Assembly: GCA_033816765.1 (NCBI GenBank)
Contig: CM066291.1
Coordinates: 3,782,001 to 3,846,000 of the forward strand
Length of the DNA stretch: 64,000 bases
DNA from: Nothopassalora personata
Taxonomy: Eukaryota > Ascomycota > Dothideomycetes > Mycosphaerellales > Mycosphaerellaceae
Direction: 5' to 3'
Positions 26,925-62,811 of the stretch are shown piece by piece. Position 1 is the stretch's first letter, and each line of letters opens with the position of its first letter. The notes under the pieces were generated by a model. It did not search any database and was not told where the DNA came from. It worked only from the letters and a program-made list of their open reading frames with translations. A program made the position numbers and the translations under genes.

Positions 26925-27105
26925 TATAAGGGGATATCGTAATATATAGCACGCCTACGATCTTCTAATCGTAGATGAACTAAAGCTTGCTTCCTTCTAT
27001 AGACGCTATACGCGTCTCCTAGTGTATGTATACGCGTCACGTGCGGTATGCTAAGCCGGGTATAGCCGCATTATATGTAAGGGTTAGCTATAGGCTACCC
27101 TTATA
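26925..27105 (-). repeat. 3' LTR of chromovirus E
   Basis: Reverse complement of the A-family LTR (27505-27701), RIP-diverged. It begins TATAAGGGGAT where the unmutated inverted end would be TGTTAAGGGG. Confidence 0.75.
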
Positions 27106-27504
27106 ACTGCCTCCCCTTCTAGGCCGAGCTACCCTTAGCTCGCGGCTTTAGGAGATTTCTATATAAGTAATCTATCTACTTCTCGTAGATTCCGTTACTA
27201 TACGACCCGCCTACGGGTCTCGTACGTATCGTTATCGTAGTGTAGGTAGGTGTAAAGTTATAGTTACCGGGTTAACTAACTCGAGGGTTTAAGAAGCGCA
27301 CCCTCTCCCTCCTTTTCCTTCTTTTTTCCTTATACTACGTTCTCGTAGCGTACTACACCCGTACTGTTATTATCTCGTTCTAGGGCTAGTCTTAAAAGAG
27401 AGATAAGTTAAGTTACGTGGCGGTATTATTCTTTAGAGAGGCTAAAGCAAGCTAAGCGAAGATAAATGATAGGAATAAGAGTTGTATTCCAATTAGTGAG
27501 ATAG

Positions 27505-27701
27505 TGTAAGGGGCAGCCCAGTAGCTAACCCCTACATGTAGCCTTACATGTGACATACGGTCGCGACCGGCTGCTAAGCCGCACGTGACACGCATAAGTA
27601 CACCTTGCGACGCGCGATGCGTCTTGAACAAAAGGCAAGAATTAGTTCATCTACGACTGGCAGGTCGTAGGCGTGCTATACATTACGACATCCCCTTAAC
27701 A
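27505..27701 (+). repeat. 5' LTR of chromovirus A
   Basis: 197 bases, same length as the partner at 33901-34097. Preceded by GATAG. Confidence 0.93.
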
Positions 27702-27829
27702 GTTCTAATTCTTCTCTTCGTTACAATCTATACACGCTATAGAGTCCGAACGCGACGACAGCAGCGCTACGCCTACGGCTCCCCTAAGCCCTAGGGCCTA
27801 GCAATAAGCGAGGCGTACAGCCTTAGTCG

Positions 27830-30800
27830 TAAGGAGGGATGCCCTTCGGGTAGAGGTTAAGGAGAAGGAGATATAGAGGGAGATTGAACAGTTAGAGATC
27901 TTACGGGACGTAAGCGTACCGCCGGCGGACCCTTAGGGCGAATCCGGCGGAGAACTATCCCCTACTCCCCCTCCCCCTCCTCTATCTGTAGTAACTAACG
28001 ATGATATCGTAGCTCGAGGCGCGGTCGCATCGCATACGACACGTTTACGTCTTAAAGAACCTACGCCTTTTAGAGGGGACTCGATTAAGAAAGCACGGGT
28101 ATTCCTAAGGGAGCTCTCTCTTATCTTTACCCTCTTAGGCGGCACGTATGCGACGAACGAGTTAAAGGTCCTATATAGGGTTATATACCTAAGCGGAGAG
28201 GCAAGTGAGCGATAGCACGCTAACTATAGCGTCCTTAACCTTAAAGGGTATATATACTAGGACTTTAAGGAGTTCTATCGAGACACATGCGGTAATCCTA
28301 TAAACCGCGTGCTTAACGTAATGTTAGAGTATAAGGCGGTGAAACAGAAGGACAACTAGATAGTACGTCAGTTTGCGACTAAGCTAGATGTTATGGAGGA
28401 TTAGTTAGGGGACTATACGGAGGCGCAACGCGTGCAACATATACTCGCTAAGCTTACGCCTAGCCTACGGTCCGTAATCGTTAAGTTTTATAACATCCTA
28501 ATAACTAGAGAGGAACTAGTAATCCTAGCTTCGCGTATTAAAAGCACGGAGCGTGGTAGCGGAGGGCACGACCGCGGGTAGCATGGTCGCCGTAGGCGAG
28601 AGACTAAGGGCGACTAAGGGCGAAGCGATCGTAGCTCGAAGTAGTAGAAGCATAGTTAGGCGTCGCGCGACCCGGGTACGAGTCACTAGCGGGACGCCGG
28701 CGGATCGTCTATAACCTTCGATAGGACTAAAGCGGAGTACTATAGATGCTATAAGAAGGGTTATATTAAGACGGATTGCCCGAATAGGCACCTGTGGAAG
28801 GACCGTAGCGCGTAAGCGGTTCGTAGGGTAGACGCTACGAAGGCTCTAACTAAGAAGGGCAGCGACTAGGGAAAAGGTAGAGGACTAGAAGTAGGTCGCT
28901 CCTAAGTCCGAGTTTTCCTAAAGTCGACCCCTTAAGGCGAGTAGATGCGTGTCTAGCGCGTCACTTACGAGGCGTAGTCGAGACTCGTAAGGGCTTTCGC
29001 GAGGCCACGTTTCTCCTAGATAACTGTACGGATCTTAGCCTAGTGTCGTACGAGTATGTACTCCGACATTAAATGTAACCCATTAATGGGGCAAGGCTAC
29101 CGAAGTTAGAGTCGTATACGCATAACCTAGGGTATTGCTACGGCGCCTTTACGGTTCGGCTGCGACTCGCTAATGACGCGGGAGTAGAGCGCGTGAGTGA
29201 CGCCATCTACTACGCGGTGCCTATAGGTAGGCCATTAGTAATTTTAGGTAGACCCTAGCGGCATCGTAATCGGATAGTAAAGGCCGATAAAGATGACTAG
29301 TAGTACTACGGTGTAGAGACGCCTACGGTTTAGCAGCGTAACGCACGCGAGTTCCTTAAGGATCTCGAGAGCTTAAAGCAGGTTTATGCGATAAGTGTTC
29401 GGGCTATTACTATAGCAGTACCTAAAGGAGAGGGCCCCTCGTAGCCTAAAGAATTTGTAGACTTCCGAGATGTATACGTACCTAATGAGTAGGCGAAGCG
29501 TAAGATGCCCGATGGGGTTAAGTATACGATTGATCTCGTTAAAGGAAAGAAACCCCCTTTCAAGCCGCTGTACCACTAGTCCTTAACTAAGTTAGAGGCC
29601 TTAAAGGAGTACCTTACGCAACCAATAGAGAAGGGGTGGATTAGGCGGTCCGTAAGCGAGGCGGGTGCGCCTATCCTGTTCGTACTAAAGAAGAATGGCA
29701 CTCTTAGGCTCTGTGTTAATTATAGAGGCCTAAATGAGATTACAGTAAAGAACCGATACCCCCTACCCCTAATTAGCGAGACGCTAGATAGGCTATTAGG
29801 TTCTAGGTTCTTCACTACAATCGATTTAAAGGACGCCTACTATCGTATCCCTATTAAGCGAGGCGATGAGTAGAAGACTGCGTTTCGTACGCGATACGGA
29901 CACTACGAGTACCTAGTAATGCCGTTCGGGTTAACTAACGTACCGGCAACCTTTTAAGGGTATATTAACAAGGCGCTAACCGGCTTAGTTAATAACATTT
30001 ACGTAGTCTACCTAGATGATATCCTCATCTATAGCGAGACGCGTGAGGCACACGTACGAGCCGTACGCGCGGTGCTAGAGAGGCTACGAAAGTTTACCCT
30101 ATTCGCAAACCCTAAGAAGTGTCACTTCTTCTAGGAGAGTGTAGAGTTCCTTAGGTTTATCGTGAGCGCCGTAGGCGTGTCGATGGATAGGAGTAGGGTA
30201 GCCGCTATCGAGGAATGGCCTATACCTACGACCTTTTATAAGGTCTAGTCCTTCCTTAGGTTTTGCAACTTCTACCGGCGTTTTATAGAAGGATACTTAA
30301 GGGTCTACAAGCCCCTAACGGACCTACTAAAGGGATCTAAGGACGGTAAGAAGCACGGCCCTCTTACGTGGACCTTAAGCGAAGAGTAGGCGTTTCGACA
30401 GCTTAAGGCCGGATTCTTAGGTGCACTAATACTTAGGCACTTCGATCCTACGCTACGCACGCGAGTCGAGACGGATGCCTTAGGTTTCGCGATCGTAGGT
30501 ATTATATCCCAATTGTTTAGTACTAAGTGGCATCCTATCGCGTTCTATTTACGTAAGATAATACTAGCTAAGTGCAACTACGAGACGCACGATTAGGAGC
30601 TACTTATAGTAGTTAAGGCTCTTAAGCATTAGAGGCTATACTTAGAGGGCGCTACGCATACGGTGCGAGTGCTAGTCGACTACGCTAACCTATAGGGCTT
30701 CATAATAGTAAAGCAGCTAAATAGGCGGTAAGCTCGATAGGCTACGTTCCTATAGTCTTTTAATTTTATAGTAGAGTATCGGCCGGGTAAGACTAACCTA

Positions 30801-32527
30801 GCCGACGCGCCTTCGAGACGTAGTAACTACGTAGCTATAACGTAACAAACTTCGAACTTACTACCTACCTTATAAAGTAAGCTATCTTTCTAGAAGGAGT
30901 CTCTAGAAGGGACAAGCGAGCCGACGGTAAAGCGCGTGCTTACTACCTACGAGGCGATATAGGGCGACATAGGCGCGGCGATAGTAGTGCGGAGAGGCAA
31001 CCTTCCCTATTAAGATAAGCTGTCTTTACTAGTAGTAGTATGCGCTACAGTAATATAGGGTTAAGCTTACAGCTCGACGGGTAAGTTAATCCTACTCTTA
31101 ATAAAGATCGCGTAGTAGTAAGACAACTAGTGTATTGCATGCTTAGCGTAGGCGCTAAGCGCGAGGGACGCTAAGGGATAGTATATGAAGGATGACCTTA
31201 TGTACTACGGAGACGCGATCGTAGTACCTAGGGATCACGCAATTAGGTCGCATCTAATTCGCATGCACTACGACGACGTCCTCGCGGGTTACTTTAGAAG
31301 GACTAAGGATAAAGAGCTGTTGCGACGTAATTATTAGTAGGACTCACTTAGTACGGACGTGAAACAATACGTCTAAGCCTATAGAACCTGCTAGGGTTCG
31401 AAGGCGAGGCGCTATCGACCCTACGGCGAGCTATAACCGCTTCCTAGACCGGAGCGACCGTAGTAGGAAATTACTATGGATTTTATTACGGACCTACCTC
31501 TAAGCACGCGAGCCGGTTACGTGTATAATACGATCCTAGTAATAGTCGATCGCTACTTAAAAATGAGCTTATACATCCCGACGACGAAGACTTATATAGC
31601 CGTAGAGCTTACGAGGCTCCTACGAGACGAAGTCGTGCGACACTATAGTGTCCCGTTAGGTATAGTAATCGACCGAGGTCCGGTCTTCACTAGTTAGTTT
31701 TAGAGTGACTTCTACTTCGAGGCGCGTATAAAGCGTAAGCTATCTACGGCCTTTCACCCTTAGACTAACGGCTAAACTAAGAGGGTAAACTAAACCCTCG
31801 AACAATACCTTCGTTATTACTATAGTAACAATTAAACTGAGTAGGCTGAGTGGCTTGTAGTTGCTAAATTCGTAGCTAATAACAGCATCCACCTAACACT
31901 ACGGATAAGTCCGTTCGAAATAGCGTACGGTTAGCGACCTAAGATTGCCCCTACACTAACTAGATCTTGAGACGAGACCTAGGGGGGGAAGTACTAGCAG
32001 CGGTAATAGCTACGAGTCGTATGCGAAAACTACGCGCTACACTCGAGGAGCGATAGAAGGCTATAGTAGAAAGCTAGGCTCGCTACTACAATAAGACCTA
32101 CTAAGCTAAGACCTACCGCGTAGGTGACTTAGTCCTATTGTTAACGAAGAACCTTAAGTTAGTAGTGCTAAAGAAGAAGATAGGTCCGAAGTTTATCGGC
32201 CCATACCGCATTACGGACGCTATCGGTTCGTAGGCGTACCGCCTAGCGCTACTAGCCGACTTAAGGCTCTATAACGTCTTCTATGTCTCTCTCCTCGAGC
32301 CGTATATCGGTAGCGATGAGGATGGACCCGTACCCCCTCTAGCTAATAAGGACGGAGAGTATGAGGTAGAGGCAGTACTAGATAGGCGTAAGCGTAAGGG
32401 TAAGCTACAGTATCTAGTCTAGTGGAAGGACTAGCTAGAGGAGTACAATAGCTAGGAACCGGCGGAGGGCCTCGCGAATGCGGATCGCATAGTAGCCGAC
32501 TATAAGGCGTTAAGGAGAAGTAAATGA
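27830..32527 (+). pseudogene. Chromovirus A gag-pol remnant
   Basis: The gag core lies around 28050-28560 (KARVFLRELSLIFTLLGG), with a nucleocapsid zinc-knuckle remnant near 28740 (YRCYKKGYIKTDCP) and a protease-like LLDNCTDLSLVSYEY near 29020. RT has the active site VYLDDILIYS (30005-30034). RNase H follows, then an integrase core in a stop-free piece at 31476-31697 (MDFITDLPLSTRAG, IVDRYLKMSLYIPTTKT). A chromodomain ends it (RRKRKGKLQYLV, EYNS, EPAEGLANADRIVADYKA at about 32380-32510). Stops are almost all TAG/TAA at Gln/Trp sites. Inactive. Confidence 0.87.
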
Positions 32528-32661
32528 GACTAGTACTAGAGCACAAACAAAACTTTTCTTAACTATAAACAAAACAAAAGCTAAAGAGTAGCGCGCCTAC
32601 TAGGGGCTACGTAGAGTAGTAGCAGGCGAGGAGCCCGCGAGCAGCGTGTAAGGCGAGCGCC

Positions 32662-33599
32662 TCAGTTGTCGTTACGTAGTGACTTAGGTAAGAATGCCTA
32701 GTCGGCGGCGGTGGTGTCGATGTTCTACGCCTATAGGAACTAGGACTACGGTTAGTAGGGTACACGTAGGCGAGGAACATGCGACTTACGGCGCGGCCGA
32801 GTTCGAATAGCCTATTAAGGGCGCGGTTCTACTCCTACTAGAGCGCGAGGGCTTCAGCGGCGGGGGCGGCGGCAGTGGTAGCGGCGGCGGCGGAGGCACG
32901 CATACGGGTCTCCCCGGCACGCTTATGCTTATAGGCATTAAACTGCCTAATAGCCTATAGGAAGGGTCAGCCGAAGCATAGGGGACGCACTAGAGCCCTC
33001 CCCCGCGAGTAGCAGTCGACTCGCACGAGCGAAGTAGCGACTTACCTCCTTAATGTCGTTGCCTAGCTAGGCACATAGGTGGATCTGCTCCACTAGCTCC
33101 TACTACTAGAGGTCTGTAGGCGCCTAGCCCATTATAGCCGTAAGGAAGTCGCGCTAGGACCGCGCGGCGCGTAGGCGGCTTACTAGCGAGGCGATGGCGT
33201 AGCTAGTGTTAGGCACGTAGCTATGTTTACTACGCCTATAGCGGCTACACTTCTTTAGGAGCTCGCCGGTAGTAACACTATCATAGTTATCGGCCTCGTC
33301 TAGTAAGTGGTTAGTTTACAAATCGTAGGCGACACGCGTAGAGACTTACCCCTAACGAAGTACGGGAGGTACCGTATACACATGTTAATTCTCTACGAGA
33401 GCTTAGTGGCTAGCGAGGGCGTTAGTAGCTACGAGGGTAATACTAGTCGCTTACAACCACTAGGCGTTCTAGGTGCGTCGCGTACTAGAGCCGCCTAGCG
33501 GCGCTCGTCTTCTACGGCGCTAGTAGTACTATCGCTACTAGTACTACTAGAGGAGGCGGAGCGGCTAGAGAATGGCGGCGAGGAGGGTACGGTAGACAT
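32662..33599 (-). pseudogene. Antisense spliced gene inside chromovirus A (RIP-stopped)
   Basis: Unknown family. On the minus strand four exons can be defined: 33599-33350, 33299-33046, 32942-32790 and 32739-32662. The introns are 50, 103 and 50 bases, with GTAAGT donors, CTAAC or CTGAC branch sites and AG acceptors. The joined length is 735 bases, exactly 245 codons ending in TGA, interrupted only by TAG stops of the RIP type. The product starts with a Ser-rich stretch (MSTVPSSPPFSSRSASSSS); a helical charged middle contains TTGELLKKCSRYRR and an Ala-rich region follows. Start codon, exon 2 length, splice sites and phases are all shared with the copy in chromovirus E (41799-42670). It lies antisense to pol, between the chromodomain and the 3' LTR. 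Confidence 0.72.
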
Positions 33600-33900
33600 A
33601 ATAATAATAATAATGCTAGCGAGGCGCTTACGATAATAGTACGGTACGGGTGCGTGGTGGTAGTGTAGCGAAGGTAATAAGCTAGGGAGCGTGCTAAGAA
33701 AGGGCTAGGTTAGGCTAGAGTTTTATGCCCCTAACTAGCTACGTCGGCATAGCAACTAAGCCTTACTTACCTACACCTATATAACGACACGTACGCAACC
33801 CAAATGTAGGCCGCATAGCAACTATAGTTCTAGAAGTACATAGGAGCCTCTACGTAGTAACTAGCGAGCTAAGGACAGCTCGCACGGGAGGGGAGGCAAT

Positions 33901-34097
33901 TGTAAGGGGCAGCCTAGTAGCTAACCCCTACATGTAGCCTTACATATAACATGCGGTCGCGACCGGCTACTAAGCCGCACGTAACACGCATGAGTACACC
34001 TTGCGACGCGCGATGCGTCTTAAACAAAAGGCAAGAATTAGTTTATCTACGACTAGTAGGTCGTGGGCGTGCTATATATTACGACATCCCCTTAATA
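33901..34097 (+). repeat. 3' LTR of chromovirus A
   Basis: 197 bases, ends TTAATA where the 5' copy has TTAACA (RIP). Followed by GATAG. Confidence 0.93.
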
Positions 34098-34715
34098 GAT
34101 AGTAACATAAGTTAAACGCATTAGAACCATAAGGGTTTCTAGCGTTCCTAAATATAAAGGAGATTCGCGGCGTAGAGCCTATAGCTTAGTATGATTACCT
34201 TAATTAGTCCTACTAAGTATACTAATTACACTAATTAGTCCGTGAAGTGATTGGTGTCACGTGCGTCTAGATAATTAGTATTACGTGTTTCTAAGTAATT
34301 AGTGTTTCGTGTATCTAGTCGGGGCTACCGTTTGGACCGAACCGTAATACTATCCCCCTTCTAGCCTAGCTTAGTCCCTTAAGCTTACTTATAACGAACG
34401 GTATCCTCTATGTATTTGCGTATAGCTTCTTCCCTTTACGATGCCTATCTACTAACGCCCTTCTAGCACTATCCGTCGCCGCCGTCTCTACGAGTTCGTT
34501 AAATCCGCGGGAGAAGTTATAGTTAAGAAATGCTTAACGTGTGAAAAGCATAGTCGCGTGTGCAAGGTGCATATTCGTTCCGGGAAGTGTAGTAAGTGTC
34601 TTCGTCGCGGCTAAAGGTGCGATATAAGAGTAAATTAGTCGGAGTTTAAGAGGTTAGTAGAGGAGAAGGCTCGTCTTCGTTAGAAAATCTAGGAGTCTCG
34701 GTCCGCTTAGGAGGA

Positions 34716-35494
34716 TTGATTGATTGATTGATTATTCCATTAACGTGCTATTTGAGTCAAAGACTATGCAACACGGGTCTCGAGAACGAGACCAAAATTT
34801 GAGAGATTTGAGAGAAGGAGAAAAGCCCCGTCGTACCCCGGACGTAAAAACTCCTTAAAAGATGCGAGCAACGCTCGCTATTCGAACCGTAAATCGAATA
34901 TATTGCGGCGTAGTACGCGCGTACCCGGTAGTCGTGTCTTGTCGAGAATTGCGGTTTGTCGCCTTGCCCCGGGCGAGACAAGTTTTGCGCCCGTGTCTCG
35001 TTCTTGTTTTTAAAAAGCCAAGCCGGCCGTACCCGTACGCACCGAGCAAAATCCCAAGAAACACCCGTTGCCTCTGTTTCAATCCAGTCGCGTTCTCCGG
35101 TCTCGAGTGTAGCTCCTCGGTCGCAGTGGCCTCGCTGTCGTCCCCCCCTCGGCCTCTCTTGGTTCCAGCCGTGCAGTATACGTGGTTTGCGCCCCTAAAC
35201 GCCTCTCTTGGTTCCAGCCGGCAGTTTACGTGGTTTGCCGGGACGACAGGTAGACAGCGCCTTCGTTGTTCGAGCGACGTGTACGCTATGTACGTCGCTT
35301 TCCCTTCTCGCAGTTCCGGAGTTCTTGTTTGTAGATTTTGAGCGTATCTCGTTCGTTCGGTTCGTCCGACCTGTCTTTTCTTGTTTCGAGTCGAGTAGGC
35401 TTGTATTTTTCGAGAGAGAGAGTCTTAGTTTCTCTTCGTCGTAACGAAGATACTTACGTCGTCCGCCGCGTGAAGGCGCTCTCTATAGGACGAC
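34716..35494 (-). mobile_element. 779-base non-LTR insertion (SINE or truncated LINE), not RIP-mutated
   Basis: It is flanked by a perfect 14-base duplication (TCCGCTTAGGAGGA at 34702-34715 and 35495-35508), typical of target-primed reverse transcription. On the minus strand its 3' end is a tail of about five AATC units. The interior has host-like composition with none of the TA enrichment of the surrounding element, so it arrived after RIP. It contains a 49-base tandem duplication (35152-35241). I see no Pol III A box and no recognisable protein; the frame 35082-34855 (75 codons, minus) is unexplained. It splits the zinc-cluster gene of chromovirus B. Confidence 0.8.
35152..35241. repeat. 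49-base tandem duplication
   Basis: Two adjacent units begin GCCTCTCTTGGTTCCAGCC (35152 and 35201) and share a TTTACGTGGTTTG-like core with a few differences. Confidence 0.7.
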
Positions 35495-35829
35495 TCCGCT
35501 TAGGAGGAGGCAATGCGGGTTTATAAGAAGGCTCTCGAGGATCTAAAGATTGCTCGCGCGCGCGACGAGCGCTTGCGTTAGTAGATAGATCTAGTGGATC
35601 GTCGTACCAAGGAGGCGATTTCCGTTAAGGAAAGGGAGATCGAGGAGTAGGAGATAGAAGAGGCTTCTTTACTTCCTTCGGATATCCCTTATAAGGGTCT
35701 AGCTCTTAACTTGTCACTAGGTACATAGGGTACTATTAAGGGTCTCGGTAACGAGTTCTAGGAGGTACCCGAACTACTCCCTACTAGTTAACTTGTAGGT
35801 CTTTGTTTTTCTTATAATATTCTCGGATC

Positions 35830-41250: not shown

Positions 41251-41636
41251 TGTTATTGTCTCGTTCTAGGGCTAGTCTTAAAAGAGAGATAAGTTAAGTC
41301 ACGTAGCGGTATTATTCTTTAGAGAGGCTAAAGCAAGCTGAGCGAAGATAAATGATAGGAATAAGAGTTGTATTCTAATCAGTGAGATAGTAACATAAGT
41401 TGAACGCATTAGAACTATAAGGGTTTCTAGCGTTCCTAAATACAAAGGAGATTCGCGGCGTAGAGCCTATAGCTTAGTATAATCACCTTGATCAGTCCTA
41501 CTAAGTATACTAATTACACTAATCAGTCCGTGAAGTGATTAGTGTCACGTGCGTCTAGATGATCAGTATTACGTGTTTCTAAGTGATTAGTGTTTCGTGT
41601 GTCTAGTCGGGGCTGCCGTTTAGACCGAACCGTAAC
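41251..41636 (-). repeat. 5' LTR of chromovirus B (uninterrupted copy)
   Basis: 386 bases with TG...CA ends and short inverted termini (TGTTA...TAACA). It aligns with 27365-27504 plus 34103-34349. Confidence 0.92.
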
Positions 41637-41798: not shown

Positions 41799-42670
41799 AT
41801 GTCTAGCGCGCTCGGCGTACTAGATACGCTAGCGAAGCGTAAGTTTAGCGTATTAGGGCCGTAGACCCCTAAGTCCTTACTAGCTAGGCGCCTAGGTACC
41901 GACATTAAGATATATATATACTATCTACTATACTTCGTAGCTAGTAAGTATTCGCTACGCTCTTCGCTTACGATACGCTTACTAATAGTATAGTAGACGA
42001 GTAGGATACGTGTAATAGTGTTACTACCGGCGAGTTACTTAAGAAGTGTAGGCGCTATAGAGACATTAGGCACCCCTACGTTAGTAACACTAGCGTCGCT
42101 ATCGCCTAGCTAGTAGCTCGCCTACGCGCCGCTCGCGCCTAGCGCGATGAGCTTATCTAGGGGCTTAGTAACCCTATTACTAAGTAAGAGTAGGATGCTC
42201 TAGACTAGTAGTACGAGCTCTACACCTAGCTAGGCGAGTAGATCCTAGAGGTAAGTACTACGCCTCGCTAGCGCTCCCTACGCTCGCCGTATGCGGCGTA
42301 CTGTCGCTCCCTATATAAATCGGCTAACCTCCTCCTAGGCTAAGAGGCAGTTCTCTACCTATAAGAATAAGCGTATAGGGGACACCCGCGTACGCTCCGC
42401 CGGCGCCTCTACTACTACTACCCCCTCCTCCGCCGCCGCTACCACGTCCGTAGTTCTATAGTAAGAGTAGAATAGGGCCCTTAATGGGCTCTTCGAGCTC
42501 GGCCGTACTATAAGTACTATACGTGTCGTATACGTGTCCTGTGCTAACCGTAGTTACAGTTCCTATAGGCTAGAAACATCGATACTACCGCGGCCGATAG
42601 GGCCTTCTTACTACTAGCCCTACGGGGCGAGTATAATAAGGAGGATAATAAGGAGAGTAATAACGAGTAA
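41799..42670 (+). pseudogene. Antisense spliced gene inside chromovirus E (RIP-stopped)
   Basis: This is the counterpart of 32662-33599 in element A. The exons are 41799-41943, 41997-42250, 42351-42509 and 42560-42670, 669 bases in all (223 codons, ending TAA). Exon 2 is 254 bases in both copies, intron phases are the same (1, 0, 0), and CTAAC or CTAAT branch sites are kept. The donor of intron 3 has become ATAAGT through a TG-to-TA change. Shared blocks include TTGELLKKC(R/S)RYR, the HPYVSNTSVAIA region, and exon 4 with NIDTTAAD. Internal stops are TAG or TAA. Function unknown. Confidence 0.7.
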
Positions 42671-42756: not shown

Positions 42757-43003
42757 TGTTAAGATGTAGCATCTTAAGGGGAGCTAACAGTTAGGTTATA
42801 ATCTAATAGCCTAAGGCATCTACGATGACTTAGCTTGTTGGAAGACACCTTCTCTCCCCTTTAGCTTAGATAGACATCTAACACAATTAATACATTAGTT
42901 CCTAATATATTGCTGCATGCCCTGTAGCTATTAGCCAGTTGAAGATTAATCTCTTACTCCACTCCGCTACTAACTACGTATCCTATTAGGTCTTAACTTA
43001 ACA
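42757..43003 (+). repeat. 5' LTR of copia-2
   Basis: 247 bases, TGTTAAG to CTTAACA. Pairs with 61706-61952. Confidence 0.93.
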
Positions 43004-45745: not shown

Positions 45746-48700
45746 ATTCAATTTGGAGCAGTTTGAAGTTCTCTTCTCCTGTCTTTCTAGCCCCGGCTGC
45801 GGACGACTTCCCCTCCCGGTTTAGCGCTCCCGAAGCCGAACCTGCAACTCAATTCCAACGTTACTTCCTAAGGGAAGAGAAATGGACGAAGAACCGATCT
45901 TTAATCCCCTAGGGGACAAAGACCAACTCTCCGACCCTTCTACGCCAACCCAGCAATTTTCGAGCATCTTTCTTAACACGAATGAAGCGAACAAGATTAT
46001 GCAAAGAAAATTTATCCCCGTTGTCGGTGCAAAAAGGCCAAGCCCGTTTGTCGAGACCGTATCGGATACATCGCCGCTAAAGCGCTACGAAGCAGTACGA
46101 ACGTCCCAATCTAACGCCTTAGAGGCCGAATCCAAGCTTAACGAAGCCTACCAATTGGTAATCGACGCCGCCGCTCTAGCAAAGGGCGACCGAAAGAGGC
46201 AAGACAAGGTCCTCGAACTTGTAGGCCTCTTTAGGGCCTTCCGCGAAGACAAGGCACTCCCGACGGCAACAGCAAAGATTGAGAAGCAGGTGTACGCCCT
46301 AGAAGGGTCAGTCGCTAAGCTTACGAAGCTTATCGACAACAGGAACAACCCTACCGGGACCCAAAAGGGCCAAAACCCAACTTTCGCAAGTATCCTCTCC
46401 GGAGGCGACCCGGCCGTCCGGACCCAAACTACGACACTACGCCAAAACTCCACCCCTCCGACACTAACCTCCTCCCAACCGAGGGTAGGTCAAACTACTA
46501 CAAACGGAACCAAGACCGATAGTAGGAAGGCCTATAGAAAGAGGAACGGATGCCGGATCGTCTTCGGTATAGCAAACAATACTACCCCTCTCGACATAAT
46601 CGCTACTCGCGATACGGTGAACCGGGCGTTCTCGGTAGCTAACCTATACCCCGGACACTCAATTCTCCTTGGAACTCGCCTCTCGGAAAAAGGAAACCTC
46701 GTCCTAACACTACGGGACGAGAAAGCAAAGGAAATACTCGAAAAGAACCTTACTCTCCTTAGGACAATTGTCCCTGTCCTTCAAGTCCTCGAAGACAACT
46801 CTTGGCACAAAGTAGTTGTGCACGGAATCGACCCTATTGCCTTTAAAGAGGACGGACCGCAGAAGGTCGCCGCCGAGCTCGTAGCCTTTAACAAAGGCTT
46901 TAACCTCGCAAATACCCCTCTTTGGCTTACGAGCGAAGAAAAGCGCCTATCCCAAATGCAAGGTTCAATGCTACTCGCCTTTAAAACAAGCGAAGAAGCT
47001 ACTAAGGCTAGGAAAGATGGCCTTTGGATCGGCGCAAAGCACCTAAGGGTGCAAAGAGCGTTATCGAAAGAAGAGAGAGAAGAAAAACAGAAAGGAAAAC
47101 TAGCCTCCCCCGGATGTTAGTTACACCGTTACGTATCTTCCAAGCAAACCTAAACCGGAGCGCGGCAGCTACCGAGTCCCTACTCGAGCTAGCAATCCGC
47201 GAAAAGGCCGACATACTAGCAATCCAAGAGCCATGGCTTTTTATAGACGAAGAAAATAGTCTACGAAGATCTATAGCTCATCCGGCCTTTACAACTCTAC
47301 TACCGACTAGTACGTCGAGGATTCGCACCCTCTTCTATATTAGTAGACAAATCCAAGTCGAAATTACTCCGGTTCAAAACAGGGACCCGGATTTTCAAGT
47401 AATATCCGCAAAGGACAAGAAGGGGAATTCGATCCAAATTCTTAATGTCTACAACGAAAAAGATAGCGAGAATGTCTGGACGAACGAAAGAGCCCTATAC
47501 CAATTTACGCCGGCAACAAATACGGTGTTACTCGGCGACTTTAATATACGACACCCGTCGTGGGATCCATACGGAAAGGATAATAGCTTACGAGCTTTAA
47601 CCTTTATTAACTGGATTGAAGCAAACAACTTCTCTCTAAGAAATACCCCGAATATAGGAACCTTCTACCGAGTACACCTAAATAACCCGAGTGTCCTAGA
47701 CCTTACCTTTACAAAAGGTAGGTTATCTAACTCGGAGATAAACTGGCGTACGCTAGAGACCGGATCCGACCACCTAGCGATCTCTCTAGACATTAGAGGA
47801 AGTAATACTTCCTCTCTACCCCTACCCCCTCCTAGCGATAGACTACGCTTCGACACGTCTAAAGCAGATTGGAAAGGCTTTTCTCAAGTACTAAAGGATC
47901 GGAAAGTAGATCTAGAAGGTATAGAAGACCTAGACCTACTAGCGAGCACCTTCTCCGACATTATATCTACCGCGGCTAAACTATATATCCCTAAACTTAG
48001 GGTAGTAGCTAAGTCTAAACCGTGGTGGACGCCGGAACTTAAAGAACTTCGTAAACAAACATCTCGCGAACGTCGAAAATTAGCTAGCCCCCTAGCATCT
48101 ACTCTACGCACCGATAAAGAAGCGTACCTAGGCGCAAGGAATAAATACTTCCTAGCTATCAAAAACGCTAAGCGAGACCATTGGAACAAGTTCCTCCAAA
48201 AGACCGATCTTACGTCGGTCTATAAGGCCTTCTCCTATACAAAAGTAGGAGGGAACAGTCTAATCCCGACTATAAACGGACAGGACACATTTAAGGGAAA
48301 ATGCGAGGCCCTCCGGGGAACGCTATTCCCTTCTCCACCTCCGGATAACCCCCTAGACCCCTCCTGGGATAACTATCCTATAGGGGACTGGGACTGGGAC
48401 CGAATACAATTAGAAGAACTGCAATCGGCATGTAGTTCCTCGAAAGTAAAAGGTAAAACCCCAGGCCCGGATGGTATAACCCAAGCAATAATTCAACGCG
48501 CATTTCAAGCTATTCCAGACGCCTTTCTTAAGGTCTACGGCTCGCTATTAAACGAAGGGTACCACCCTAAGTGCTGGCGAGTAGCGATTGGATTTACTCT
48601 TGCAAAACCAGGGAAGCCCGACTACTCGATTCCTAAGGCATATAGGATAATAGCCCTCCTTAACTGTCTAGGGAAAGTAAGCGAGAGAATACTAGCGAAA

Positions 48701-49749
48701 AGACTCGGAGCTCTAGCCGATACCGGCCCGTTACTTCACGACTCGCAAATGGGCGGCAGAACTAAACGTTCGGCCGTAGACACAGCCCTCCTCCTAACCG
48801 ACTTTGTCGAAAGGAACCGAGTAAAAGGAAAGAAGACAAGCGTAGCCTTTCTAGACGTTAAAGGAGCCTTCGACCACGTAGCGAAGAACCGCCTCCTAAG
48901 AACACTAATTAAGCTACGACTCCCCTACTCGGTTATAAGGTGGGCTAAGTCCTTCCTCGAAGAACGGAGGATTCAACTATCCTTTAACGGACAAATAGAA
49001 GAGACCACGGACGTTGAGACAGGCGTACCGCAAGGTAGTCCAATCTCGCCGATTTTATTTCTTATCTATATAAGGGATCTTTTTACGGACATTAAAACCG
49101 TAACTCCCTTATCCTACATCGACGATATTGGACTCCTAGTTGCATCGACTAGCCTTAAGAAGAACGCAAAGACCCTCGAGAAAGAGGTTAAGCTCTTAAC
49201 GAAGAAAGGAGCCGAACAAGCGATAGAATTTGACCTCGCTAAAACCGAGCTCCTACACTTCGCAAAAGGCAAAGGACACGATAGTTCTATTACCCTACCA
49301 AGCGGGGAAGTTATTAAACCCGCGACAAAGGCCGTACGATGGCTAGGGATCTGGTTTGATACCTATCTTACCTTTAAAGAACATATTCAAATCCGAGCAA
49401 CTAAGGCACTTGCCTCCTTCTACAGGATGAACCGCCTAGCGAATATAGGGAATGGGTTAAGCACTCGCTCCCTACGCACACTATACCTTTCTTGCGTTAC
49501 TACCGTAGCCGACTACGGGGCGCCGGTTTGGTGGAAATCGAGGAGAGCTATTACCCCCCTAGAGGCTATACACGGAAAAGGCATTCGTAAAGTCCTAGGG
49601 GTCTTCCGTACTACTCCTACCGAGCCTGCCGAGAGAGAAGCAAACCTCCTTACCCCTCGAATTCGCCTAGAACGCCAGGTCCTCAAATATAGCTTAAGGC
49701 TAAAGAAGCTTCCCGAAGACAACCCGATTGCTAGGGCCCTAAGTAGTAA
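45746..49749 (+). mobile_element. Non-LTR retrotransposon (LINE), 3' end missing
   Basis: Composition switches at about 45740-45755 from RIP-mutated copia to CA/TG-containing DNA. Two overlapping long open frames follow, ORF1 and an endonuclease-RT ORF2. The right side stops at 49749, where the LTR of element C starts; no RNase H end, 3' UTR or tail is present. There are no internal stops. The order ORF1, APE endonuclease, RT places it in the broad Tad1/I-like LINE group of fungi. Confidence 0.85.
45882..47120 (+). CDS. LINE ORF1 (nucleic-acid-binding/gag-like protein)
   Basis: A 412-residue open frame upstream of the RT gene. The N-terminal 80 residues are Pro/Ser/Thr-rich. Residues around 75-155 are heptad-like and probably coiled-coil (EAESKLNEAYQLV...; KIEKQVYALEGSVAKLTKLI). 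A Thr/Gln-rich linker follows. A folded C-terminal region of about 170 residues (NGCRIVFGIANNTTPLD to LRVQRALSKEEREEK) resembles the RRM-like part of LINE ORF1 proteins. There is no CCHC knuckle, which such proteins often have. It would coat LINE RNA in a ribonucleoprotein. It overlaps the long ORF2 frame by 97 bases, and its TAG overlaps the junction ATGTTAG. Confidence 0.75.
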   Translation: MDEEPIFNPLGDKDQLSDPSTPTQQFSSIFLNTNEANKIMQRKFIPVVGAKRPSPFVETVSDTSPLKRYEAVRTSQSNALEAESKLNEAYQLVIDAAALAKGDRKRQDKVLELVGLFRAFREDKALPTATAKIEKQVYALEGSVAKLTKLIDNRNNPTGTQKGQNPTFASILSGGDPAVRTQTTTLRQNSTPPTLTSSQPRVGQTTTNGTKTDSRKAYRKRNGCRIVFGIANNTTPLDIIATRDTVNRAFSVANLYPGHSILLGTRLSEKGNLVLTLRDEKAKEILEKNLTLLRTIVPVLQVLEDNSWHKVVVHGIDPIAFKEDGPQKVAAELVAFNKGFNLANTPLWLTSEEKRLSQMQGSMLLAFKTSEEATKARKDGLWIGAKHLRVQRALSKEEREEKQKGKLASPGC

Positions 49750-49813
49750 TGTCTACCAACCACCCTATGTAGGCCTGTCCGAGTTGTGGTGGTATGGAGC
49801 GGTGCTTGCGTAA
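47024..49813 (+). CDS. LINE ORF2: APE endonuclease-reverse transcriptase, chimeric C-terminus
   Basis: The likely start is the ATG at 47114 (residue 31 of the open frame), inside ATGTTAG, where it overlaps the ORF1 stop. Residues about 35-250 are an AP-endonuclease-like domain (FQANLNRSAAATE; IQEPW; LLGDFNIRHPSWDP; GSDHLAISLD). The RT spans roughly 470-760: KTPGPDGITQAII, AYRIIALLNCLGKV, VAFLDVKGAFDHV, GVPQGSPISPILFLIYI and the active site YIDDIGLLV. The endonuclease would nick chromosomal DNA and the RT would copy LINE RNA there. From 49750 the frame runs into the LTR of element C, so the last 21 residues (after ARALSSN) and the stop are foreign. The natural C-terminus, probably with RNase H, is lost. 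Confidence 0.88.
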   Translation: MDRRKAPKGAKSVIERRERRKTERKTSLPRMLVTPLRIFQANLNRSAAATESLLELAIREKADILAIQEPWLFIDEENSLRRSIAHPAFTTLLPTSTSRIRTLFYISRQIQVEITPVQNRDPDFQVISAKDKKGNSIQILNVYNEKDSENVWTNERALYQFTPATNTVLLGDFNIRHPSWDPYGKDNSLRALTFINWIEANNFSLRNTPNIGTFYRVHLNNPSVLDLTFTKGRLSNSEINWRTLETGSDHLAISLDIRGSNTSSLPLPPPSDRLRFDTSKADWKGFSQVLKDRKVDLEGIEDLDLLASTFSDIISTAAKLYIPKLRVVAKSKPWWTPELKELRKQTSRERRKLASPLASTLRTDKEAYLGARNKYFLAIKNAKRDHWNKFLQKTDLTSVYKAFSYTKVGGNSLIPTINGQDTFKGKCEALRGTLFPSPPPDNPLDPSWDNYPIGDWDWDRIQLEELQSACSSSKVKGKTPGPDGITQAIIQRAFQAIPDAFLKVYGSLLNEGYHPKCWRVAIGFTLAKPGKPDYSIPKAYRIIALLNCLGKVSERILAKRLGALADTGPLLHDSQMGGRTKRSAVDTALLLTDFVERNRVKGKKTSVAFLDVKGAFDHVAKNRLLRTLIKLRLPYSVIRWAKSFLEERRIQLSFNGQIEETTDVETGVPQGSPISPILFLIYIRDLFTDIKTVTPLSYIDDIGLLVASTSLKKNAKTLEKEVKLLTKKGAEQAIEFDLAKTELLHFAKGKGHDSSITLPSGEVIKPATKAVRWLGIWFDTYLTFKEHIQIRATKALASFYRMNRLANIGNGLSTRSLRTLYLSCVTTVADYGAPVWWKSRRAITPLEAIHGKGIRKVLGVFRTTPTEPAEREANLLTPRIRLERQVLKYSLRLKKLPEDNPIARALSSNVYQPPYVGLSELWWYGAVLA

Positions 49814-50121
49814 GCAGGGGTATTTGCCGGTCCTGGGACCGGGAAATCAGGTCACGTGACGAGCAGCGCAGTAGCCAGATAAAACAAGAGGATTGGCGGA
49901 CCCTAAACCCCTATACCCTCTACTCGAGAGGTATGAATTGAATTGTTGCCTTGATGCTACGCTTACAATACTCAACTGCGCAATATATATCTCAATGGCC
50001 ATACCAGGTCCTGCTGGCTTGCCCAAATGTCCAATCAAACCTAAATGAAATTGGGCAAGTTGGACCCAAGGGACCCCTTCCCAAACCCAAACCCAAGGTC
50101 AACACAACCCATTAGTCGTCA
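49750..50121 (-). repeat. 3' LTR of element C
   Basis: 372 bases, two mismatches to 61034-61405. Sense (minus) ends are TGACGAC...GGTAGACA. Contains an imperfect copy of the 26-base palindrome at 49822-49847 and a CACGTG at 49853-49858. Confidence 0.95.
49822..49847. repeat. 26-base palindrome (copy 3, 3' LTR)
   Basis: ATTTGCCGG...CCGGGAAAT; imperfect, followed by GTCACGTGAC at 49851-49860. Confidence 0.9.
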
Positions 50122-50138
50122 ATATATCCTCCCCCATT
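50122..50138 (-). promoter_or_regulatory. Polypurine tract of element C
   Basis: On the minus strand AATGGGGGAGGATATAT runs into the 3' LTR. A purine run at this place primes plus-strand DNA synthesis in LTR elements and confirms the minus orientation. Confidence 0.6.
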
Positions 50139-50621
50139 ACGAACCTGTCCTCAGGTTCCAAAGCAGTAAGCCCGGGCCTACCATTCAGCTTGACATACAA
50201 GATGTCAGGCAATCCGTGATGGTGACGTCAATAATCCGCGACTCGCGCCCGTCGCACTGCGTTGACGTATGCCACGAGACTGGCGAGGGGTTGGGCAGCT
50301 ATGTCAGCATCAATCGAACAGGCCAGATGGTCGAACAATGTAAGCGCCATTCATGAGACAAGTGAGTGTCAGTACCAGTAACCTGATAAATCCAAAGACG
50401 AGTCCATCGCGTGGCCAGAAAGTGAGTCAAGGGAAGATAAGTGACCATAAGAAACAAGTAAGATCTAAGGACCAGAAGCACCCGTACCCGAAGCATCAAC
50501 CAGAATCAGAACCGGAAACATAACCAGAACCAGAACCAGAATCAGAACCAGAAACCCATAGGCTACAGCTGTAGCCGGAAATCAACCAGAAACCAGGAGC
50601 CCATAAACCCGCACCAACCAC
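50139..50621. other. 3' untranslated part of element C
   Basis: There is no gene. Around 50500-50600 the plus strand carries many AACCAGAA-like units (CCAGAACCAGAACCAGAATC), so the sense strand is a pyrimidine-rich TTCTGG repeat after the third gene. Confidence 0.5.
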
Positions 50622-51539
50622 TCAGTTCCACTCATTCTCACACAACTCCTTTGTCCAGACCCACTCGTTGTCGTGGCCAACACCAATCTCACTAGACGCG
50701 TCCCCAAGTGGCTGGTTGGTGAAGTTCCCATGGTAGTTGCGGAAGAAGCTCTCATCACGCCCTTCGCTTGTGAAGCACATCTGCTCGAGAGCAGTGACCA
50801 AGCTGAGCTGCTTGTCCATCAATTTCACAGCTCGGACGCGCCATTCATGCATCTTCTTGTGGAAGAGCTCCGAGTCTGGGCGGACCGCAGCATCAAGCCA
50901 CCTTCTAGCATCAAGGATGACTTCGTTGTCGTTCCAGGACTTCAAACCCGCTAGGGCATCGGACAGGGGGCTGATGCCACTGAGGTGTACGGCCGCAGGG
51001 AAAGGGTGGCCAGGTACTGGGCGTCGATACTCAAACCCTGCAGCGCTCTCACTTGGCGTCTTGAAGTCACGATGGAGGTCCATCACCTGGTGCATGCTCC
51101 AGCTTCTCTGGAGTTCAAGATAGTCATCGTCGCGGATCGCGATAAAGCAAGGGTCAATCTGACGCAGCGTCTTCTTGTGTGCGGCCTGCCTCATTGGAAC
51201 GCCTGCAGTGGTCACCCGCATTTGCCCAGCGCTTAGGTCCTCTCTGAACCAGCTGATGCTGTTCTTGCTCAGGTAATTCTGAACCCCAACCGAGAAGAAA
51301 CGCTTAAATCGGCCGTCTTCTATGCAGTCGTTGATCTGGCACCACTGGATGAACTCTGCAGCATTCCCTTGCTTATGAAAACCGTGTAAAAACTCCGGCC
51401 CACTGGTGCCCTCTGAGTCAAGAGAGTACAGCATGTTGAGCCGGTTGCTAGTCCAGTAGTTTTCAATTTCGAGGTTCAAGTCGACCCCAGCATGCTGCAC
51501 CATGGTGTTCGCATCACCCCCCCTGATGAGCCCTGTCAA
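50622..51539 (-). CDS. Element C third gene, downstream half (unknown function)
   Basis: I recognise no family. The frame is open from before 51539 to 50622 and lies in the +1 frame relative to the 670-residue frame that ends at 51514. Its conserved-looking start (FSALTGLIRGGDANTMVQHAGVDLN) continues the protein of that frame, so the two are probably one gene of about 965 residues interrupted by one extra base or read by +1 frameshifting. A run of seven C (plus strand 51517-51523; G7 in the message) lies exactly in the overlap. The sequence is hydrophilic, rich in Trp and charged residues, with no membrane segment or signal peptide, so an envelope-type role is unlikely. Confidence 0.6.
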   Translation of the reverse strand: MTGLIRGGDANTMVQHAGVDLNLEIENYWTSNRLNMLYSLDSEGTSGPEFLHGFHKQGNAAEFIQWCQINDCIEDGRFKRFFSVGVQNYLSKNSISWFREDLSAGQMRVTTAGVPMRQAAHKKTLRQIDPCFIAIRDDDYLELQRSWSMHQVMDLHRDFKTPSESAAGFEYRRPVPGHPFPAAVHLSGISPLSDALAGLKSWNDNEVILDARRWLDAAVRPDSELFHKKMHEWRVRAVKLMDKQLSLVTALEQMCFTSEGRDESFFRNYHGNFTNQPLGDASSEIGVGHDNEWVWTKELCENEWN

Positions 51540-53526: not shown

Positions 53527-54127
53527 GATAACTAGGATTCACTATCAGTGAGATCGTAAGAGCTGGCTATCTCGTGGTGCCACTCTGGAGTGTTGGTAAG
53601 CTTTGAAAGCTTGGTATCGGGGTGGGCTTTGAAGGTCAAGGTCGTGAAGAGAGAGAGGCCAGAGAACCGTCTGATGTGTGGTGGTAGGTGGATGTGTTGG
53701 TGGTTCTGGTGATGGTGCTAGTGTTTGAAGAAAAAGAGAGGAAGTAGCAGGCAGAGAGCTGCGCTTAAGGATGCCTCTCAGCGTATGTCCCTGTGACCGT
53801 TGCAAGGCAGCAGCGCCGAGACCGGTCTCATAAGTGGCAAGAGCAGTGCCATTGAGATCACACTGAAGGTCCGATGGCCCTGCATGTGACCGAAAACCAG
53901 TGCTGGTGACCACCTAGGTGAGCATTCGGCAGGGGGCATGCCACGCTGTCACGTGATCCGATTTACCGGTCCCGGGACCGGTAAATGTGACTCTACTAAC
54001 TGAGGTCCAACCAAGGCAAGAACACCCCATGAAGTGAAGTCCAGATAACCGAATCGGCTTAACAAACTGAAGGGCATGCGCAACACATGCCTAAGGGAAG
54101 TGAACTCCGTACGCCATTGCCAACTGA
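53527..54127 (-). promoter_or_regulatory. Spacer between pol and the third gene of element C
   Basis: Six hundred bases without a convincing gene. It holds the perfect palindrome at 53961-53986 with a GTCACGTGA beside it (53948-53956), the same pairing as in the LTRs. A minus-strand frame at 53913-53545 (122 codons) ends just upstream of the third gene and could be leader sequence. Confidence 0.45.
53961..53986. repeat. Perfect 26-base palindrome (copy 1 of 4 in element C)
   Basis: ATTTACCGG...CCGGTAAAT, centred on CCCGGG, is identical to its reverse complement. Related copies are at 57779-57804 (one mismatch), 49822-49847 and 61106-61131. Confidence 0.95.
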
Positions 54128-60807: not shown

Positions 60808-61033
60808 TGTTGCGTGGTGCTTGCTTCAGAATGTGCTGATACTAGTTGTTGCTTGACAGGACCTTGTGACCGTGATTGTTGCTGAATACCTTGGACCTTG
60901 AATGTTTTTCGACCTTAGTCGACCTTGACCGTGAACCTTGGACCTTGAACCGTGATTTTGACCTTATAAACTGGATGCTGATACGCCACCGGGTGTACAC
61001 TTGATAACCCCCCCTCATTGACCACCAAAATAA
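60808..61033 (-). promoter_or_regulatory. 5' leader of element C with ACCTT/AAGGT repeats and PBS region
   Basis: Between the 5' LTR and gag. Next to the LTR the sense strand reads TTATTTTGGTGGTCAATGAG, where TGG starts the probable primer binding site; the tRNA is not identified. Within 60859-60965 ACCTT occurs eight times on the plus strand (AAGGT on the sense strand), mostly in ACCTTGRACC-like units. Confidence 0.5.
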
Positions 61034-61405
61034 TGTCTACCAACCACCCTATGTAGGCCTGTCCGAGTTGTGGTGGTATGGAGCGGTGCTTGCGTAAGCA
61101 GGGGTATTTGCCGGTCCTGGGACCGGGAAATCAGGTCACGTGACGAGCAGCGCAGTAGCCAGATAAAACAAGAGGATTGGCGGACCCTAAACCCCTATAC
61201 CCTCTACTCGAGAGGTATGAATTGAATTGTTGCCTTGATGCTACGCTTACAATACTCAACTGCGCAGTATATATCTCAATGGCCATACCAGGTCCTGCTG
61301 GCTTGCCCAAATGTCCAATCAAACCTAAATGAATTTGGGCAAGTTGGACCCAAGGGACCCCTTCCCAAACCCAAACCCAAGGTCAACACAACCCATTAGT
61401 CGTCA
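61034..61405 (-). repeat. 5' LTR of element C
   Basis: 372 bases, same ends as the partner. Carries the palindrome at 61106-61131. Confidence 0.95.
61106..61131. repeat. 26-base palindrome (copy 4, 5' LTR)
   Basis: Identical to the copy in the other LTR. Confidence 0.9.
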
Positions 61406-61705
61406 ATACTAGTCTAATTGAGAGGTAACAACTAAGCTGCCCTTACCCTAGTAAGGGATGCACATGTTTATAATAAGTTAAAGCACATTAACATTACCTA
61501 CAATACTATTAGGAAACTTTAGTAGAGAAGGCTTATTACTGTTAAGTACACCCTAACATCTAAGATAGTTATAGATAGGTTTATAAAGCTAAAGACTAGT
61601 CCACACTTCTAGAGGTTTGTAAGCTAGCTTAACCTGTTATAGAGGTCTAAATACTACTAATAGGAGAAGAGTAGACTGTAACCTCCTATATAAGATAAGT
61701 GGGAG
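61406..61705 (+). pseudogene. Copia-2 RNase H tail
   Basis: Reads through RIP-type stops as AALTLVRDAHVYNKLKHINI, then RRLITVKYTLTSKIVIDRFIK: the end of copia RNase H (KHIDI... and the late ...KMVADGxTKP-like block). The polypurine tract and 3' LTR follow. Confidence 0.8.
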
Positions 61706-61952: not shown

Positions 61953-62811
61953 ATTTTTAAAATAAATACTCTTCTCTTTACTCTTCTCTCTCCTTACCTC
62001 CCTCTCTAATGTTATTACTATCGGGGGTGTTTACTCGACTAAGTAAGCGAGCCTTTTAGTCCAATAGAAGATACTATAGGTTAGTGTCTTCTATACTAGT
62101 TATAGCTAAGTTTACTATCGGGGGTAGAGGTCCTTATATCTAGCTACCGAAGGGTTAAGGTCTAAATGCATAACCTATGCCCTTATTTTAGCGCCTTATA
62201 CTACCTTCGTAGGTACCTTATATTCGACTACTATACGCGTAGCCTTCGCGGATCCTTCCGCCGGCTTATACCGTCTTCGCTAACGCCTTATATTCGGCTA
62301 CTATACGCGTAGCATTCGCGAGTCCTTATACTAGCTCCTAGCTGTTATACTCTTCTAGCTAGCCCTTCTATCGTACTAGGTACTGCACTTTACCCTTATG
62401 CTTACGCTTTCCTAGTACTACCTCTACTTTATATTCCCCGTCCTTGTTAGCGAGGGCTATAGTACCTCCATCCTTCTCGCTACCCGCGTACGGCTCGAGG
62501 AGGGATACATAGAATACATTATGAATTCTTAAGTCGGCTAGTAGTACTAGGCGGTATGCCTACGAACCGATAGCGTTAATAATGCGGTACGGTCTAATAA
62601 ACTTCGGACCTATCTTCTTCTTCGGTAATACTAACCTTAGGTTCTTCGTAGATAATAAGACTATGTCGCCTACGCGATAGCTCTTAGCCTTATAAGTCTT
62701 ATTATAGTAGCGAGTCTAATCGGCTACTACGATTTCCTAATGCTTCGTAAGCGTAGCGCGCATCTCTCGTATACGGTTAACTGAGTCTACCGCTACTAGT
62801 ACCTTAGACAA
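61953..62811 (-). pseudogene. Chromovirus E pol C-terminus
   Basis: On the minus strand this aligns with element A at about 32080-32530: integrase tail (near 62630-62560) and chromodomain (near 62420-62200), RIP-mutated. The chromodomain end is locally duplicated: 62217 onward and 62288 onward both read CCTTATATTCG(A/G)CTACTATACGC. Confidence 0.7.

Follow-up and report, generated by a model that had tools for sequence, protein, structure and literature searches.

A chromodomain Ty3/gypsy retrotransposon in the genome of Nothopassalora personata carries on the strand opposite to pol, in the interval that separates pol from the 3' LTR, what is probably (a likelihood of roughly 0.78) an accessory protein-coding gene of its family that would be interrupted by three spliceosomal introns. 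The gene was analyzed in a 64,000-nucleotide stretch of contig CM066291.1 (positions 3,782,001 to 3,846,000), which is referred to here as the window, and in related copies elsewhere in the same genome. At the level of sequence comparison, the results described below establish the existence of the gene, the open frame of its sister copies, an exon-intron structure common to a diverged family and selection on its codons.

Element A, which contains the gene, is a plus-strand Ty3/gypsy chromovirus with the target duplication GATAG on both sides. Its 5' LTR (27505..27701, +), which is preceded by GATAG and whose end was placed at the terminal CA, matches the LTR of an unmutated sister copy, L039, at 96%. 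This is followed by gag (27739..28903, +), which matches the gag frame that is open in L039 at 91%, and by pol (29073..32527, +; RT, RNase H, integrase and chromodomain), which matches the 1151-aa pol, also open in that copy, at 90.8%; both genes of element A are RIP-damaged. The 3' LTR (33901..34097, +) matches the L039 LTR at 92% and is followed by GATAG. L039 is a full natural element with gag and pol open, and its terminal repeats, identical over 199 bp, together with a GTCCC duplication indicate that its insertion was very recent. Analysis of the L039 pol against Pfam revealed RVT_1, RT_RNaseH, Integrase_H2C2, rve and Chromo domains, and these domains in a pol 90.8% identical to that of the window place element A among the chromodomain Ty3/gypsy elements. 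Element A is nested within an LTR of another element, element B (LTR halves at 27365-27505 and 34097-34347; partner LTR at 41251-41635). An inverted relic on the minus strand at 26927-27252 resembles the 3' end of element A, LTR included, at approximately 67-71% identity.

RIP was heavy in the region 32500-33900, where TAG is tenfold commoner than CAG and the TpA/ApT ratio is 3.35, compared with 0.6 in host sequence at the left end of the window. The unmutated left part of the window contains a 792-aa frame with a full DUF3405 match (69-2444, +). Two further retroelements were identified toward the right end of the window. The first, on the minus strand at 49747-61408, is a young 11.6-kb LTR element with 378-bp LTRs that are 99.5% identical; its frames of 970 and 1273 aa show matches to RT, RNase H and integrase and a weak one to protease, and two more frames in sense orientation (670 and 305 aa), neither with a Pfam match, lie between pol and the 3' LTR. 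The second is a LINE-type element (45882-49813, +) with endonuclease and RT matches and a 412-aa frame ahead of them; it was apparently cut short when the element at 49747 inserted.

The antisense gene of element A lies on the strand opposite to pol, between the chromodomain and the 3' LTR, and extends from an ATG at 33599 to a TGA that ends at 32662 (all parts on the minus strand). Exon 1 (33350..33599) contains the ATG and encodes a Ser-rich N-terminus and the first CxxC; exon 2 (33046..33299) encodes the remaining four motif cysteines and a helical-looking region; exon 3 (32790..32954) is supported by the spliced frame, the sister copies and the alignment with a second family; and exon 4 with the TGA stop (32662..32730) is supported by the spliced frame and the sister copies. 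Between them lie intron 1 (33300..33349, 50 nt; GTAAGT, CTAAC, TAG), intron 2 (32955..33045, 91 nt; GTAAGT, CTGAC, TAG) and intron 3 (32731..32789, 59 nt; GTAAGT, CTAAC, TAG). These results reproduced the original prediction with respect to the place, antisense orientation, four exons, coordinates and counts, including TAG as the only kind of stop (14 in-frame TAG, and zero internal TAA or TGA), and with respect to three introns that by their sequence are of spliceosomal type, with GTAAGT donors, CTAAC or CTGAC branch sites and AG acceptors. The predicted length of exactly 245 codons holds for the acceptors given here, but not for every acceptor that keeps the frame: five intron 3 acceptors (32746, 32740, 32731, 32725 and 32698) and a second intron 2 acceptor (32943) do so, and the alternatives for introns 2 and 3 give 230 to 250 codons. 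Taken alone, the open frame of this RIP-saturated copy is weak evidence, since several frames of the GC-rich stretch are open in an unmutated copy as well; frame openness by itself was for this reason dropped as proof and constraint was tested instead. The window copy of the gene is a RIP-killed relic.

Unmutated sister copies of the gene were identified by searching the genome with the translated exons and scoring the best 150 candidates. Exon 2 was stop-free in 27 of these best 150 matches, and 24 of the 27 covered the full exon. Eight unmutated copies were read across the gene; exon 1, and the whole spliced frame from ATG to stop, is open in six of them (L039 to L044), and the remaining two are truncated (L055) or without the exon 1/exon 2 junction (L056). 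The window gene differs from one of the open copies, L040 (G000:C13:713500-720400), at 106 positions. RIP-type changes (C-to-T at CpA or G-to-A at TpG) make up 98 of them; the rest comprise 5 transitions of these kinds outside those contexts and 3 transversions. Together with the open sisters, the predominance of RIP-type differences indicates that the frame is real and that its TAG stops are damage, which confirms the RIP origin proposed for them. Intact relatives lacking an open frame had been named in the original prediction as evidence that would count against it; within this genome, the unmutated relatives possess the open frame.

Among the six open copies, L040 is the sole copy with intron 3 and a full-length 3' part. 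The other five are without 167 nt, comprising 84 bases of exon 3, the entire intron 3 and 24 bases of exon 4 (108 coding bases). In these deletion copies the spliced frame remains in register and reaches the same stop codon; the unspliced frame would shift. The resulting fused exon was stop-free in 24 unmutated matches and present in 2 RIP-damaged ones among the best 150 scored, and since RIP-damaged copies carry it too, the short form is not brand new. With odds of one in three that a deletion stays in frame by luck, this in-frame deletion backs the spliced frame as support rather than proof.

The exon-intron structure is common to a second, diverged family, which is represented in the window by the RIP-damaged element C in the opposite orientation. 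Its antisense gene (41931..42609, +) has the same intron places and approximately 64% nucleotide identity to the unmutated A-type gene of L040, and its pol end (62283..62802, -), which is separated from the antisense gene by nested insertions, has 72% nucleotide identity to the L039 pol, with RIP differences counted in both values. In the wider C family, pol was found beside the antisense gene and on the opposite strand at five of the six loci examined (L046, L049, L050, L060 and L062; not L047). Direct repeats of 247 bp (42757-43003 and 61706-61952) that are 97% identical bracket the nested block that splits element C, and are possibly the LTRs of yet another element.

All three introns occur at matching places in the A and C families. 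In the aligned rows, the intron 1 donor is GTAAGT in 20 of 21 and its acceptor TAG in 21 of 21; the intron 2 donor is GTAAGT in 15 of 18 (the others being two ATAAGT and one GTAAGC) and its acceptor TAG in 18 of 18; and the intron 3 donor is GTRAGT (GTAAGT or GTGAGT) in 7 of 16 and ATAAGT in 9 of 16, with an AG acceptor (TAG or CAG) in all 16. A CTRAY branch-like motif is present in all aligned rows. The splice signals of the three introns thus persist over the A, A' and C rows, barring donor changes that are mostly RIP-type. Because ATAAGT is the RIP product of GTAAGT after T, the donor losses in RIP-damaged C copies were read as damage, and splicing is no longer possible at intron 3 or intron 2 in the copies that carry it. 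Both the splice signals and the frame have been kept over this divergence, as in a protein-coding gene with spliceosomal introns.

RIP makes C-to-T and G-to-A changes only, and coding the nucleotides as purines or pyrimidines therefore hides it. Purine/pyrimidine changes were placed on a tree of 20 copies and counted by codon position of the spliced frame, with exon 1 counted for its last 45 nt only, since A and C are unreliable in the alignment upstream of that point. The copies left out were the window copy of A (a RIP sibling of L040), L039 and L041-L044 (near-identical to L040), L058 (an A' copy close to L057), L047, L049 and L050 (further C copies), L054 (truncated), and L055 and L056 (rearranged); the rows of L051, L061, L064, L065 and L069 stop at their breakpoints, and those of L053 and L061 start close to where exon 1 ends. 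This analysis revealed changes at 67 of 176, 41 of 177 and 89 of 177 sites at codon positions 1, 2 and 3, respectively (chi-square P = 0.00015; permutation within exons P = 0.0004). The order 2<1<3 was observed in every exon, with 7, 3 and 10 changes at positions 1, 2 and 3 in the last 45 nt of exon 1, 37, 27 and 49 in exon 2, 17, 9 and 19 in exon 3, and 6, 2 and 11 in exon 4. A similar bias was found in the second family without the A rows (36, 17 and 48; P = 0.0007) and in 11 full-length C rows (22, 14 and 32; P = 0.028). RIP-dead copies should dilute this signal rather than create it, because they add unselected changes, and the bias tracks the spliced frame across introns whose lengths are no multiple of three. 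Purifying selection, which had been proposed as a check of the original prediction, was thereby demonstrated for the codons of the antisense gene in the spliced frame, as judged from the substitutions in these copies. The constraint is clear, if weaker than on pol, for which the control comparison of A with C gave 11, 6 and 22 changes of 173 sites each at positions 1, 2 and 3. Taken together, the unmutated open sisters, the splice signals in a diverged family and a codon bias that follows the spliced frame raise the gene above chance, and it is highly probable that it is a selected coding gene.

The natural A-type protein begins with a Ser-rich stretch, followed by the motif C-x2-C-x11-C-x11-C-x2-C-x6-C and a region that is helical-looking by eye. 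The six cysteine codons are RIP-compatible at positions 1 and 2 in 17 of 17 second-family copies, compared with 56 of 99 codons overall (P = 0.03). These six kept cysteines suggest a zinc-binding, perhaps regulatory, protein, and the A-type product is probably a cysteine-rich zinc binder. The Zn2Cys6 binuclear cluster (Pfam Zn_clus, PF00172) has the motif C-x2-C-x6-C-x5-12-C-x2-C-x6-8-C, and the second half of the A-type motif has the spacing of these fungal zinc clusters. Membership was rejected for the A-type protein, with a spacing of 2, 11, 11, 2 and 6, in which the second half fits and the first loop is too long, and no Pfam match to Zn_clus was obtained at E<=10; we therefore call the predicted motif zinc-cluster-like rather than a zinc-cluster member. 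Pfam and PDB searches gave no named relative of the A-type protein, and the Transposase 28 domain of Retand/TRP28 (PF04195) was absent from Pfam scans at E<=10. The sub-cutoff Pfam matches to Ribosomal_60s, Rpn3_C and Herpes_UL92 (all E above 0.04) were not used.

Other chromoviruses in this genome contain antisense genes at the same place and on the same strand relative to pol, which also encode a six-cysteine motif but differ from the A-type gene in having a single exon and no profile match to it. The gene of this B-type in element B adjoins the 3' LTR and is split by an insertion of approximately 0.79 kb flanked by CCGCTTAGGAGGA. Its first part (34441..34716, +; start placed by comparison with the relative L072) encodes C-x2-C-x6-C-x8-C-x2-C-x6-C and has unmutated relatives that are 83% identical; its second part, after the nested insertion (35500..35791, +), is continuous with the first in L072. 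In L051, an insert of this kind interrupts the A/C-type gene where exon 2 ends. Of the best 150 scored matches to the element B gene, 45 were stop-free, in several identity classes.

The surroundings were examined for four B-type relatives (L072, L073, L074 and L075), in each of which a single-exon antisense gene of 185-187 codons lies directly after a chromovirus pol. The frame is open in L072, L073 and L074 and has one interruption in L075; L074 and L075 are one family, 99% alike. Chromo was detected in the pols of L072 and L073, and the L074 pol is 97.5% identical to that of L072. The B-type product has the six-cysteine motif at its N-terminus, followed by a helical-looking region; the spacing given above fits the Zn2Cys6 pattern, with x7 as the last loop in L074 and L075, and there was no Zn_clus Pfam match at E<=1. 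Weak matches of B-type proteins were left unused, namely DUF6478 (E 0.0027, in the helical-looking region of L073), the best NCBIfam match (E 0.0089) and PDB matches including a Leu3 zinc-cluster chain at E 0.7 for L073. By a rough measure, the B-type antisense genes also appear to be under purifying selection: NG86 dN/dS was 0.26-0.28 for three antisense pairs, values that are rough since dS was saturated, above 1.8, and 0.10-0.15 for pol of the B-type chromoviruses. L072 and L074 are 97.5% identical in gag-pol over 3432 nt and only 37% identical in their antisense proteins, with the break near the pol end, and the antisense module thus appears to have been exchanged between lineages; L072 and L073 are 87% identical in pol amino acids and 53% in antisense proteins. 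Kinship of the A-type with the B-type was tried by hhalign and rejected (probability 0.7%, E 0.08 over 19 columns), in a comparison of one A-type sequence against four that leaves room for a distant relationship.

With respect to the origin of the gene, a host gene and its introns may have been captured in antisense orientation, at the level of DNA or unspliced RNA, and then kept. Such a capture, which is compatible with an accessory coding gene, would account for short introns with ordinary splice signals and agrees with the result that no sequence relation was detected with the intronless antisense genes that other chromoviruses carry here. However, no host homologue was found among the best 150 candidates from the same genome, which are filled by element copies, and we regard this origin as possible and somewhat unlikely.

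The rate of change of the introns bears on whether the product could be an RNA instead of a protein. The introns change slowly across the 20 copies (11/50, 26/91 and 15/59 for introns 1 to 3; 52/200 in all), at a rate close to that of second codon positions and below that of third positions. Within the C rows there were changes at 18 of 200 intron sites, compared with 17 and 48 of 177 at codon positions 2 and 3. In the pair formed by the window copy of C and L060, the 3' flank changed at 7 of 83 sites, like third positions; the 5' flank showed 0 of 56 changes in this pair and in the pair of the window copy with L051, and 17 of 56 in comparison with L053, whose upstream part fails to align. Slow introns are unpredicted by constraint on exons alone. 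Splice signals may explain part of this slowness, and regulatory sequence or an RNA role the rest. These features would suit a spliced antisense lncRNA with real splice sites that pairs with the sense RNA and either feeds silencing or masks it. There is a fungal precedent in Blumeria hordei, for which the cited report describes spliced antisense lncRNAs of Ty3 and Ty1 elements that encode no meaningful peptides (PMC10648671). The gene analyzed here shares with those transcripts antisense splice sites in a fungal LTR retrotransposon, but differs in its codon constraint: an lncRNA does not predict the codon-position bias seen in all four exons, nor that unmutated copies should have the frame open or that a deletion should take out an intron and leave the frame intact. 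An lncRNA in place of a protein is thus improbable; the two may also both be true at once.

A further possibility is that conservation acts on a frame of the sense strand, or on an element at the DNA or RNA level, and that the antisense frame simply reflects it. In its favor, L040 has some sense frames that are open when the exons are taken one at a time, and the introns and in part the flanks are conserved. It is nevertheless very improbable, because in all four exons the slowest sites are second positions of antisense codons, and no single sense frame stays in register across the three introns (50, 91 and 59 nt). Finally, a chance frame, in which a GC-rich stretch, the conversion of CAG to TAG by RIP, the rarity of other stops and freely chosen introns combine, might explain why in L040 exons 1 and 3 are stop-free in other antisense frames too and why several acceptors are usable, but is refuted in the main and the least credible explanation, given that exon 2 is open in one antisense frame out of three in that copy, that the codon bias has P = 0.00015, and that introns and splice signals are common to families of only about 64% identity.

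For the accessory coding gene that we favor, expression would depend on the host. Host RNA polymerase II would transcribe the gene from its own promoter between the ATG and the 3' LTR; a TATA-like CATAAAA is located approximately 125 nt upstream of the ATG, within the internal region and outside the LTR. The three introns would then be removed by the host spliceosome, and only antisense transcripts would be spliceable into the message. Since antisense introns stay in the genomic sense RNA, each new copy inherits them, and the corresponding reasoning of the original prediction is supported. The product would be a zinc-binding, probably nuclear and nucleic-acid-binding regulator of element transcription, integration or silencing; such a regulatory role is a tentative proposal, a little short of an even chance. 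By analogy, the Grande gene23, Retand TRP28 and HBZ proteins resemble the proposed regulator. For HBZ the likeness is by analogy only, in that it is also an antisense retroelement gene with a nuclear product; it belongs to an animal retrovirus, is of bZIP type and is spliced.

An antisense gene of fungal elements, brtn of Boty, was reportedly described by Zhao et al. in 2011. The original prediction named antisense ORFs at this place for some plant Ty3/gypsy lineages and knew of no described spliced one in fungal chromoviruses; insofar as this implies that nothing of the kind has been described there, it does not stand: brtn is cited as an antisense extra gene between pol and the 3' LTR of Boty-like elements of Botrytis cinerea and Sclerotinia sclerotiorum (PMC7264820, PMC8365987, PMC4227169). 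According to one of these reports, the elements that bear it are Ty3/gypsy with a gag-pol containing a CHROMO domain (PMC4227169), and a Monilinia transcript resembling BRTN has been named (PMC5987419). As far as these descriptions go, brtn and the gene analyzed here are alike in being antisense genes between pol and the 3' LTR of a fungal chromodomain Ty3/gypsy element, a comparison made by description only; they differ in the three introns found here, introns being unmentioned for brtn in the passages of the citing papers that concern it. In plants, the antisense genes between pol and the 3' LTR (aORF-3R) include those for the Retand TRP28 proteins and maize Grande gene23, the latter being transcribed from a promoter upstream of it and having a nuclear product according to the cited accounts (PMC11963269, PMC7264820). 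These share with the present gene their antisense place between pol and the 3' LTR, their occurrence in many copies or clusters and a suspected DNA binding. In contrast, Retand is not a chromovirus lineage, no TRP28 match was found here, and the cited accounts of the plant genes make no mention of introns where they describe them. HTLV-1 HBZ is cited in the same context as an antisense retroviral protein with a nuclear role (PMC11963269). Searches of open-licence papers turned up no fungal chromovirus with an antisense gene that both encodes a protein and has several introns. An antisense gene in a fungal chromovirus (brtn) and spliced antisense transcripts of fungal Ty3 elements (the Blumeria lncRNAs) are thus already known; as far as these searches go, the three conserved introns, the evidence for selection and the wider class of antisense genes in this genome are new.

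The usual view is that LTR retrotransposons need gag and pol only. A selected protein encoded antisense to these two, in a gene whose introns survive passage through the genomic RNA, would mean that these fungal elements carry a dedicated accessory gene. Because splicing marks the antisense message, its expression should be readable unambiguously from ordinary RNA-seq, and the purine/pyrimidine count makes selection on RIP-ruined genes measurable without restoring them. More speculatively, and with odds that we place at rather less than even, the A/C-type and B-type genes may belong to a class of exchangeable antisense cysteine-cluster regulator modules, in which the A/C module would be a multi-intron, strand-specific and splice-dependent regulator gene. 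If this is true, the presence of two unrelated families in one slot would imply that the antisense slot beside the 3' LTR is under recurrent selection.
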